This document shows positions 55,014 to 59,395 of a DNA stretch of 64,000 nucleotides, one piece after another. Position 1 is the stretch's first letter; the number at the start of each line of letters is the position of its first letter. The notes below the pieces were generated by a model. It ran no database searches and was not told where the DNA came from. It saw only the letters and a program-made list of their open reading frames with translations. This DNA comes from Clostridia bacterium. GTDB lineage: Bacteria; Bacillota; Clostridia; TANB77; CAG-508. The stretch lies in the NCBI GenBank assembly GCA_017512025.1, contig JAFWHH010000008.1, positions 1 to 64,000 of the forward strand. The letters are read 5' to 3'. The position numbers and the translations under genes were made by a program.

Positions 55014-57167
55014 TTAGTCTTTTTGATTCTTTAAAGATGTATCAATTTGACTTAAATTATTTATGAATTTTCTAACAGCTTTAGTTGATTTAATATTACC
55101 TAAAGTAGGAATTAAACCAGTATTTTGCATCTTTAAGGAGTTAGCTCTATTTATTTGAATAACACGTTTAAGTTCGTTATTCTTTTCTTGCACCATATTA
55201 ATCTGTGCTTTACTAAATAAACGTTTCTTCTCCTTAGATAACACAAGCTGTGGCAAATTCCTTTGTTGATCAATCTTTTCACGTGTTTTCTTTGTTAGCT
55301 TTTCTTGATTAATCATTTCCTTTATTTGGTTATTTGTTTCAACATTTCTTAAATAAATCTTTACATCAGAAACACAAGATGCATCTTCTTCAGTCTTAAT
55401 AAATGCATATATATCTGATAATCCATCTTCTAAAGTAGAATATGAATTGCTTGAAAATTGTGATTCTGTTAATATTAATTGCTCTTTTAGATTAATATTA
55501 TCTAATCTTGCTTGTTTTAACTTTGCTTTACCAATCAATTTGCTAAAGAATGAACACTTTTCACCTTCAACTTCTTTTCTTTGTTTATCAAGTTTCTTTA
55601 ACTTAGCATCAGTAATCATCTTTCTAGCATTTTTATTGAAACATGCCATATAGATGCTCTTCATTTCTTCGCCATACTCATCTACGATACTCTTATCAGC
55701 AGAAAGTGTTTTTAAATCTGATAAAAAGTCATTGTTACAATTAAGTTCATCTAATTTATTAATTAGATCAATCTTTTTCTTAACTTCAAATGAATTAGCC
55801 TTGATAGAATTAATGTTAGAATTGATTGAAGCATCACTGATTTTATCAATGTTCATTTCTATTCCAGTACTATTAGCTAAATCTAAAGATTTTGCTTCTT
55901 CAGTTTTAAGCTTATAATATGTCATCTCAATATTATTAACAATATTTGAAATACTACTTGCAGCTACTTCTTTAGCCTTCTTGATTTTTTGGTTTAGCAC
56001 TTCTTCTTTATCTTTTGTATCAATTATCTTTTCAGGAGCTTTTTGAACAGCTTTCACTTGAGAAGACTTCTTAACTTCCTTCTCCTCTACTTTCTTTGGT
56101 ATTTTAGTAGATTTTGCTGTCTCTTTTTTAGCAACCGTCTTTTTTGTAGCACTTTTACTTACATTCTCTTTAGATTCTGTTTTACTCATATTAATCTCTT
56201 CTTGTTTTACAATTTTTATCAATTTCTTCAAAACATCATCATATGTAATATTGTTTATATCAAGTTTAAGAACAAAATCATCCTCTATTTCGTACTGAAT
56301 TACTTTTTTATAATACTTGATGAAAACTTCATAATTTGGAAATAGTTTTCCCATTAGTAAAAATTGATCAACAAGGTCCTCACTTTCATCATTCTCTTTA
56401 TATTCAAAACCAATTTTAGCAACATTCCTAAGTCGTAGTTTGAGCTTATCGTAGCTCTTAAATTCTTTTGGTAAATATACATTTTTTATGAATGTTTCGA
56501 AATCCTTTTTTGAATTAATTTCTACTTTCTTTTCATCAATTTTCATTATAAACTTGCATTCATCTTCATTGCCTAATCTTTTTAATCTAAACTTTGAACC
56601 ATACAAGTCAGATATCATGTTAATTAAATACATGATATCTCTATCTGCCGGAGTTGATCTAACAACAGCAGCAAAAACATATTGCTTATTAATCATGGCT
56701 TTTTCTTCTTTAGATTGTGCTCTAGACATCTCTAACAAGTATTTAATCATCATTAAAGAAACCCTAGCGACACCATCCTTTACGAAGAATTTTCCATTAT
56801 CCTCATAAAGCTCTATGCTACCGTTATGCTTCAGTCCAGCTTGATTCAATTGTTTTAAATCCTTATAGTAGTAATTTGGATTTTTAAAATATAACTTTAT
56901 TATTTCATCTGTTTTCTCATTGTTGTCAAAAATCTCAATCCATGTTTTGTTATCAAAATCTGCATTATCTGTGCCAAATAGATTTTTAAGCCTAAACGCT
57001 TTTTCTTGTGGAATCGTCCAATCTTTTTGCGTTAAAAACTTAACGCTCTCTTTTGGCAATTTGGTTTGCATACTATTTGATTTAATTTGTAATTCTGGAG
57101 GCAAATTATTAGTATCAAGGCCGATACTATTAAAAAAGCTCCTTTTCTGTAAAGATATTTTTTGCAT
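55014..57167 (-). CDS. Large coiled-coil protein with a ParB-like N-terminal domain
   Basis: 717 residues, no export signal. Residues about 70-210 hold a ParB/Srx-like segment: IELYEDNGKFFVKDGVARVS at 118-137 matches the beta-strand plus DG-x-x-R motif of ParB-like nucleotide-binding domains, with Ala where His or Glu is common. Residues about 335-395 are a Lys/Glu/Ala low-complexity linker (KKTVAKKETAKSTKIPKK), then long coiled coils rich in Lys, Asn and Ser to the end. It starts 13 bases after the DnaB-like gene. The pair suggests a DNA replication, partition or defence function, which is inference. Confidence 0.65.
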   Translation of the reverse strand: MQKISLQKRSFFNSIGLDTNNLPPELQIKSNSMQTKLPKESVKFLTQKDWTIPQEKAFRLKNLFGTDNADFDNKTWIEIFDNNEKTDEIIKLYFKNPNYYYKDLKQLNQAGLKHNGSIELYEDNGKFFVKDGVARVSLMMIKYLLEMSRAQSKEEKAMINKQYVFAAVVRSTPADRDIMYLINMISDLYGSKFRLKRLGNEDECKFIMKIDEKKVEINSKKDFETFIKNVYLPKEFKSYDKLKLRLRNVAKIGFEYKENDESEDLVDQFLLMGKLFPNYEVFIKYYKKVIQYEIEDDFVLKLDINNITYDDVLKKLIKIVKQEEINMSKTESKENVSKSATKKTVAKKETAKSTKIPKKVEEKEVKKSSQVKAVQKAPEKIIDTKDKEEVLNQKIKKAKEVAASSISNIVNNIEMTYYKLKTEEAKSLDLANSTGIEMNIDKISDASINSNINSIKANSFEVKKKIDLINKLDELNCNNDFLSDLKTLSADKSIVDEYGEEMKSIYMACFNKNARKMITDAKLKKLDKQRKEVEGEKCSFFSKLIGKAKLKQARLDNINLKEQLILTESQFSSNSYSTLEDGLSDIYAFIKTEEDASCVSDVKIYLRNVETNNQIKEMINQEKLTKKTREKIDQQRNLPQLVLSKEKKRLFSKAQINMVQEKNNELKRVIQINRANSLKMQNTGLIPTLGNIKSTKAVRKFINNLSQIDTSLKNQKD

Positions 57168-57180
57168 AAATTCTACAACC

Positions 57181-58722
57181 TCATTTCAACTTTTGTTTCA
57201 TTCTTAAGTACCCAAGTTCAAACCATTCGTTGTATGCAAGGTTTAGTCTAAATAACAAATTAGGTTTTGCACCAGCTCTGTTCTTATCAACTACGCATGC
57301 ATAGTATCTAACATCTGGATCACTATAATACTCTAGGTCCTTATACTTTTCTGCTTCTTCAGTTTCTGAATATTCATAGTCATTATATGTTTCTTTTGTA
57401 ATTTGTTTAAACAGACACAATGTATCCAAAACTTCTTTTACTGTTCTACTCGCTGCCATATCATTAATTGTTAAATTAAGTGGAGTTGTACTATTTTCAA
57501 GCAATTGCAATGTTGATCCAATAAACATCTTATATTGTTGTGCCATAGTAGATAATATTGTTGCTGTCTTTTTAATCTCATCCCCATCACCAATATGTGC
57601 AATATCATTCTTTAATGTATCGTAGAATACATATTCTACACCTTCTTTATAGTAATAGTTTAAGATTATTTTGTATAAATCTTCATTTGTATGCTCAGCT
57701 ATATGCATAAAGCAAATTGGATTGTTTCTTTGATTTTGTAGCCAATCTGTTGCTTTGATAACATTATTAAATTCAGAAGAATACTTTTTAAGTTTAGCTA
57801 CAAATTGTTCGTGCGTTTCTCCTTCTTCCTTTAATATATAGCCTTTATCATCAGTTTTAACTGCCTTTTTATTATCTGGTCTGTATTTAAATTCTAGTAA
57901 TTCCCCTTCAGATACTCTTATCTTGCAGCCAATTTCTTTTTGTAGTCTTGAATTGTTTATAATTGTTGTTATTAAACATAGTTTCATTTTTTCTTCAGAC
58001 ATTTCATTTGAAATAATTAAAACTTTCTTTTTCTCAACGAAAGCCATATGTGCAGCCATATTGATTGTAAATCTACTCTTACCACAGTTGGATGGCATAG
58101 AGAAGGCCATTGTTTCTCCAAGTCTTATTCCTTTAAAAACATCTGTAAGAATTGGGAATGGCAAACTAATTCCGCTTGTTAAAGTACTTTCTCCTGCTAG
58201 AAGAAAATCAGTAACACCTTTATTTAATCTACCTTCGCTAATTCCTCTTTTTATGCCAACTTCAGATACTATATTTTCAAGTTCTTCAATTGTCATTTCT
58301 TTATATCTTTTGAAACTTTTTATTTCTAAAACATCTTGTTGTATTTTCTTTGTTGGTGCATTTATATAATATTTTTTTAATAAAAACAACTTTTTTATCT
58401 TAATAAATATATTTTCTATATTATATTTTTTCTCTTGAGCCTCTTGTTTAAGCTTTTGTTTTAAACGATATATCTCATCGGAGGTTTTTGGATAAGTAAA
58501 TGCTCTCTTAATTTTCTCTGGAGCAAATTTACCACCCTCAGTGAATAAAATACTTTTATATAAATTTAGAGCCATTTCATCTGAGAATTGAGCATCCTCA
58601 AATGATAAATAATATTTTTGAATTGATTTTGGATTATCAAGTAGTAAGGCAACATAAGCGTACTCTAACTTAATATTTGTTAATTCAATTGGATACTTTT
58701 CTTCTTCTTTTTTTACACCCAA
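57181..58722 (-). CDS. DnaB-like replicative-helicase homologue with a TTG start
   Basis: 513 residues. Residues 15-75 resemble the DnaB N-terminal domain (LEYAYVALLLDNPKSI). The RecA-like core has Walker A FSMPSNCGKSRFTI (Lys-Ser 215-216), then KVLIISNEMSEEKMKLCLI as in DnaB (IFSLEMSxEQL), Walker B-like YVFYDTLKND and DMAASRTVKEVLDTLCLF. Compared with DnaB there is a long insert after the first core strands. Start: TTG at 58720-58722, 8 bases after AAGGAGG, no ATG nearby. It is probably not the main replicative helicase, being divergent and placed between lepB and a ParB-like gene. Confidence 0.7.
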   Translation of the reverse strand: MGVKKEEEKYPIELTNIKLEYAYVALLLDNPKSIQKYYLSFEDAQFSDEMALNLYKSILFTEGGKFAPEKIKRAFTYPKTSDEIYRLKQKLKQEAQEKKYNIENIFIKIKKLFLLKKYYINAPTKKIQQDVLEIKSFKRYKEMTIEELENIVSEVGIKRGISEGRLNKGVTDFLLAGESTLTSGISLPFPILTDVFKGIRLGETMAFSMPSNCGKSRFTINMAAHMAFVEKKKVLIISNEMSEEKMKLCLITTIINNSRLQKEIGCKIRVSEGELLEFKYRPDNKKAVKTDDKGYILKEEGETHEQFVAKLKKYSSEFNNVIKATDWLQNQRNNPICFMHIAEHTNEDLYKIILNYYYKEGVEYVFYDTLKNDIAHIGDGDEIKKTATILSTMAQQYKMFIGSTLQLLENSTTPLNLTINDMAASRTVKEVLDTLCLFKQITKETYNDYEYSETEEAEKYKDLEYYSDPDVRYYACVVDKNRAGAKPNLLFRLNLAYNEWFELGYLRMKQKLK

Positions 58723-58744
58723 TTTAAAATCCTCCTTAGTTAAT

Positions 58745-59395
58745 CTATTTCTTTAAACTTTTCCATTTGTTTAGTGGCCAGAATCTTAATACTGCTCTTC
58801 CTTCAATTTTATCGATTGGAATACATCCAAATCTTCTACTATCTGTTGAGTTATTTCTATTATCTCCTAAAACATATACGTAGCCATCTGGAACAACAAT
58901 ATCAATAAATAAACCGCTCTCAGGCTCTGTACGTTTTCCTTCATCTAAATATGGTTCATCTAATTTTTCACCATTTAAGTATACAGCACCATCTTTTATT
59001 TCAACATGATCTCCTGGCAAACCAATTACTCTTTTTACGAAGTCAGTTTTTCCAAATATTGACACGGCTGAAATAAATTTTTGTAGTAGATTTTTCTTCT
59101 TTTCATTATATTTAGCAACTGGATTATTTAAATCAGCTTCAACCTTTGATTGGTATAAATGATTTTGATCCGGTGCTTCAAATGTTATAATATCTCCTCT
59201 TTCAGGATATTTATTTATCTTAACACCTATTCTGCTAATCCATAGGCGTTGACCATCTCTTAATGTTGAGTCCATTGATTCTCCACTTACAACTGTTGGG
59301 AAACCAACAAAAGTCTTAATACAAGCAACTATAATAAGGGCTATAAGTATACATACAAGCCATTCAAATACTTCCTTACTTTTTTTAGATTCCAT
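58745..59395 (-). CDS. lepB: Signal peptidase I
   Basis: 216 residues from the ATG at 59393-59395, preceded by AAAGGAAGAG; the frame extends to 59470 with no site. One N-terminal membrane helix (WLVCILIALIIVACIKTFVG), catalytic Ser40 in VVSGESMDSTL, catalytic Lys121 in FVKRVIGLPGD, and the C-terminal VLGDNRNNSTDSRRFG. Cleaves signal peptides of exported proteins. It heads the operon with the DnaB-like and ParB-like genes, an unexpected partnership. Confidence 0.96.
   Translation of the reverse strand: MESKKSKEVFEWLVCILIALIIVACIKTFVGFPTVVSGESMDSTLRDGQRLWISRIGVKINKYPERGDIITFEAPDQNHLYQSKVEADLNNPVAKYNEKKKNLLQKFISAVSIFGKTDFVKRVIGLPGDHVEIKDGAVYLNGEKLDEPYLDEGKRTEPESGLFIDIVVPDGYVYVLGDNRNNSTDSRRFGCIPIDKIEGRAVLRFWPLNKWKSLKK

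Follow-up and report, generated by a model that had tools for sequence, protein, structure and literature searches.

A putatively domesticated phage-type DnaB helicase in an order of Clostridia and its coiled-coil partner in one clade

Outside its bacterial order, the closest named homologues of hel, the helicase described here, are those of Geobacillus virus E3 (gp100; 29% identity) and Fusobacterium phage Fnu1 (phrog_19). The phage proteins and hel are alike in having DnaB-type N- and C-terminal domains. The phage genes lie in a replication module with a primase (in E3 also with an exonuclease and Pol III), whereas hel is chromosomal and away from any such module. Host DnaB (TIGR00665) shares its fold and ATPase motifs with hel but forms a separate clade, and host dnaB lies elsewhere in the genome with conserved neighbours. 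Ban of phage P1 is a DnaB-type helicase of phage origin that is present beside host DnaB. It is carried on a prophage-plasmid, whereas hel is chromosomal and largely vertically inherited. That phage versions have taken the place of host replication proteins is reportedly a long-standing proposal of Forterre. The product of par, the gene downstream of hel, shares a short GxxR motif in its N-terminal domain with ParB/sulfiredoxin-like proteins, but no detectable sequence-profile or fold match. Our literature search found no description of the hel family.

We analysed a stretch of 64,000 nucleotides from a Clostridia bacterium (the window; contig JAFWHH010000008.1). The features used below are as follows, with the basis of each in brackets.

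57181..58722, minus strand: hel, phage-type DnaB-like helicase of 513 aa with a TTG start (open reading frame, Pfam, PHROG, alignment, fold, tree)
55014..57167, minus strand: par, modular coiled-coil protein of 717 aa, gene downstream of hel (open reading frame)
57168-57180, minus strand: gap of 13 bases between hel and par (sequence)
58730..58737, minus strand: Shine-Dalgarno of hel, AAGGAGGA, 7 bases 5' of the TTG start (sequence)
57178..57182, minus strand: Shine-Dalgarno of par, GAGGT, overlapping the hel stop codon (sequence)
58072..58092, minus strand: Walker A of hel, SNCGKSR, residues 211-217 (alignment)
56193..57167, minus strand: par N-terminal domain, residues 1-325, restricted to the order (homologue searches)
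56754..56792, minus strand: ParB/sulfiredoxin-like motif region of par, KFFVKDGVARVSL, residues 126-138 (alignment of relatives)
55017..55955, minus strand: par C-terminal helical domain, residues 405-717, fused to different N-terminal domains in other genomes (homologue searches)
58745..59392, minus strand: lepB2, second lepB paralogue, on the strand of hel and 22 bases upstream of it (domain match, synteny)

Both reading frames were found where the original prediction had placed them, with the TTG start, gap and par length that it had given. Upstream of hel lie lepB2, dagK and the AMP-binding and Rsm22 genes, and downstream a G5-domain gene. We found no integrase, rep or parA in the flanks of hel in the window, where the neighbours are ordinary chromosomal genes, and no ParA-like gene next to the hel-par pair. 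With these chromosomal flanks, hel does not lie within a phage replication module. Its identity as a prophage gene was likewise rejected.

By domain match, the lepB gene upstream of hel encodes a signal peptidase, as had been predicted. It is, however, a second paralogue, and the usual copy of the genome (walK-lepB-holB) lies separately, at C21. Among the genus genomes searched, members with hel had two lepB genes and those without hel had one. The lepB2 gene at 58745-59392 was restricted to hel-carrying genus members among the genomes searched. The gene order lepB2-hel-par was conserved among the hel carriers of the genus (8/8 genomes). Judged from its layout, the predicted "lepB operon" of the window is lepB2-hel-par, and the three genes would be co-transcribed.

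The description of hel as a divergent DnaB homologue held. The protein marginally passed the curated Pfam cut-off for DnaB_C (27.3 bits; cut-off 27) and matched phrog_19 over nearly its full length (residues 11-504, E = 1.8e-25; PHROGs). Against the host-DnaB equivalog TIGR00665 it scored 27.5 bits, where the cut-off is 385.25 (NCBIfam). On this score, its separate clade and the host dnaB elsewhere in the genome, we rejected hel as the host replicative DnaB. The AlphaFold model (mean pLDDT 78.6) matched full-length DnaB chains in Foldseek, with both the N-terminal and the C-terminal DnaB fold recovered (best match 4esv, E = 8.9e-14 over 521 columns). Motif roles were assigned by analogy with DnaB. 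We observed that the relatives of hel kept GKS of Walker A (80/80), NEM with the catalytic Glu (80/80), YDTL of Walker B (78/80) and DKNRAG of the arginine finger (79/80). The predicted insert was also found; it comprises ~60 residues between NEM and Walker B and is present in every aligned family member. These domain, motif and fold data suggest that hel is a DnaB-type (SF4) helicase, predicted to form a hexamer with ssDNA-dependent unwinding activity.

Within the genus, dN/dS of hel was ~0.04-0.17, with synonymous sites near saturation. Selection on hel is strongly purifying. Several hel relatives (L082, L095, L116, L121, L108 and others) were extended at the N terminus by up to 494 residues; these extensions are often made of repeats, with Asp+Glu contents of up to 76%. 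An extension with at least 30% Asp+Glu was present in 32/80 relatives and absent from hel of the window. Such acidic tails probably regulate DNA or partner binding in the many relatives that have them.

To place hel, a tree of 34 rows was used, which included chromosomal hels, phage helicases, dnaB and one copy from a viral-labelled contig. All chromosomal hels and the viral-labelled-contig copy formed one clade (100/99). This clade was nested in a larger one with phage helicases, apart from dnaB (100/100), and its neighbours on the phage side were replication helicases of large Firmicutes phages. Because several phage rows stood on long branches, the phage donor cannot be named. Genes of the phage relatives adjoin those for primase, an exonuclease (RecJ-type) and Pol III, as in Geobacillus virus E3, and also Sak4-like genes. 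Inside the order, the trees of hel and dnaB agreed on the families save for one genome. That genome, of another family, was nested in the family of the window (AU P = 0.00013), pointing to at least one transfer.

The surroundings of hel were not stable. A neighbour of hel was shared in 8/156 between-clade genome pairs, compared to 150/152 for dnaB. Across ~98 loci, no conserved neighbour was common to genera and there was no pathway link. The best fit to these data is a gene of considerable age, mostly vertically inherited, with changes of location and frequent losses. At L073, L074, L076, L078, L079, L080, L082, L084, L095, L103, L110, L116 and L121, hel adjoins sigE/sigG-like genes in what reads as the spoIIG sporulation locus. 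One viral-labelled contig ends with a hel copy of 56% identity (L142:6295-8076), and a phage amidase gene precedes it by ~2.3 kb. This copy may be a prophage edge or phage-borne.

We found hel in 217/385 genomes of the order, nearly always in single copy. It is absent from 44% of these genomes and is therefore dispensable. High-score matches occurred in 21/57 relatives of the genome. In a sample of the class, 13/391 genomes had a match and 12 of these lay inside the order; outside the order, the single match among ~373 sampled class genomes was a phage replication module. At that locus (L283, in G624), a Sak4-like gene, the hel relative, primase, a RecJ-like gene and Pol III make up what reads as the module. 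The GTDB genomes contained 353 hel loci, and among the 80 matches listed all were from Clostridia. Plasmids and named phages had no hel relative above 35% identity. Searches elsewhere in the genome of the window found both canonical dnaB and canonical parB. Canonical dnaB was also present in 54/57 relatives. In the other three, one hel carrier and two non-carriers, dnaB gave no strong match, and because both kinds are affected these are likely assembly gaps.

The distribution of par was much narrower. It adjoined hel in 8/8 carrier genomes of one clade of the genus, with a gap of 13 bases each time. Since the hel carriers within the genus form one clade on the dnaB tree, the 8/8 pairing counts as one event. 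The pairing proved to be no general system but a feature of one clade of one genus, and hel occurs in 23/48 genera of the order, mostly without par.

The ParB-like domain that had been read into par reduced to a resemblance of motif. Its N-terminal domain has a degenerate GxxR-type motif, preceded by a K-[YF]-x-[VI] strand and resembling ParB/sulfiredoxin; par of the window has DGVAR where its relatives have GGNNR or NGNHR. No ParB match, PF02195 included, was obtained in Pfam, NCBIfam, PHROG or PDB sequences. In hhalign, par scored 14.4 against a canonical ParB profile, compared to 15.8 for the lepB control. Local par-ParB runs gave a probability of 1.7, compared to at most 0.6 for column shuffles, but they aligned the wrong regions and were set aside. 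Structure prediction, which gave hel its DnaB fold, yielded for par a low-confidence model (N-terminal part mostly at pLDDT <50) with no fold match. We rejected par as a ParB on the lack of family and profile matches; a model of this confidence speaks neither for nor against the fold. A YefM antitoxin identity for residues 188-256 was also not trusted (weak match, E = 0.013-0.05). More broadly, par had no Pfam, NCBIfam, PHROG or PADLOC match and was not found in viral contigs, phages or plasmids.

Full or partial relatives of the par N-terminal domain occurred in seven further genomes of the order and nowhere else in the class sample. Wherever both were located, these relatives and hel were on different contigs. 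Outside the genus, the nearest relative of par (L170:11156-13474, in G216) lies ~1.6 kb downstream of a gene for a TraG/VirD4-type coupling ATPase. Genomes with the par-type C-terminal domain had hel in 13/13 cases. This co-occurrence is not proof, because three of the 13 come from the clade with linked genes and hel is common in the remaining genera. At five loci (L296:5467-7437, L297:4964-6934, L298:5655-7589, L299:4678-6675 and L300:4806-6779), in housekeeping surroundings, the C-terminal domain forms a fusion with an N-terminal region that carries the motifs R (RG), STS and ExE. The three fusions scanned had no Pfam match, and by motif the region reads like an ADP-ribosyltransferase. Overall, par appears to belong to a family of modular proteins that is specific to the order.

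The explanation that we favour, with about even confidence, is that hel is a replicative helicase of phage origin, domesticated long ago and retained in an accessory role, and that par is a later, order-specific, adaptor-like partner. At the level of sequence, the data show the fold, the motifs, the phage-sided phylogeny, the single clade, purifying selection, the retained dnaB and the changing location. The ancestor of the order would have taken hel from a large Firmicutes phage and kept it as a second chromosomal helicase beside host DnaB. The protein would form a hexamer, be loaded on single-stranded DNA and unwind it 5'-3' with ATP. In the host it would have an accessory role at forks, in replication restart or in recombination, and would not serve to replicate an element. 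Within the genus, one clade would have hel in an operon with lepB2 and par, where par may act as an adaptor or loader of hel, as the constant gene order suggests. Most genomes with hel lack par, so that this role cannot be general. The original prediction had spoken of a possible domesticated replicon module. Domestication is supported by the phage-helicase clade, chromosomal neighbours, purifying selection and order-wide occurrence of hel; a general pairing is not.

The chief rival to an accessory helicase is that captured hel poisons the replication of an incoming phage by titrating its primase, loader or Sak4 partner. Descent from phage replication helicases, the patchy and dispensable presence of hel and its changes of location would suit such a role, as would the exchangeable N-terminal domains of modular par, one of them ADP-ribosyltransferase-like by motif. 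However, hel keeps all of its ATPase motifs, which a decoy could lose, and at family level it is mostly inherited vertically. No defence genes were noted beside hel and PADLOC gave no match. This rival appears unlikely to us, and the defence system suggested earlier gained no positive evidence. We consider it quite unlikely that hel travels on an unrecognised mobile or replicon element, with the helicase as the only conserved gene and par as partition-like cargo. The neighbourhood of hel does differ in nearly every genus, at least one copy moved to another family (AU P = 0.00013), and a 56% identical copy lies downstream of an amidase gene on a viral-labelled contig. Against this, the window has ordinary flanks lacking integrase, rep and parA, hel is almost always single-copy, its tree otherwise matches that of dnaB, and plasmids and named phages yielded no relative above 35% identity.

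A developmental role in sporulation, with hel as an additional helicase of the forespore or mother cell, is suggested by ~13 loci in which sigE- and sigG-like genes adjoin hel; on contigs that extend far enough, ftsZ and spoIIGA-like genes lie upstream. Most hel loci lie elsewhere, however, and spoIIGA was present in 72/80 genomes regardless of hel, which leaves this role very improbable. The least probable reading, and one with no positive evidence and no parA neighbour, is the chromosome-segregation device of the original prediction, in which par would bind DNA through a ParB-like domain and hel would move or open it. The GxxR-type motif (GGNNR, NGNHR in relatives), the coiled coil of par and the constant gene order are consistent with it. 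They are set against a par protein with no ParB family match, a profile comparison no better than the lepB control, a model with no fold match, a canonical parB elsewhere in the genome and a pairing limited to one clade.

We offer a wider possibility tentatively and regard it as doubtful. This gut Clostridia order may run a standing second replicative-type helicase, ancient, of phage origin and mostly vertical, with hyper-acidic N-terminal tails in many lineages. It would act in a chromosome-maintenance or phage-control step for which no described bacterium is known to use a DnaB homologue. Host and phage-type helicase versions coexist across one order, and about half of its genomes are natural knock-outs. 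This coexistence makes it testable why a cell keeps a second replicative-type helicase, and whether that helicase would work at host forks or against phages.
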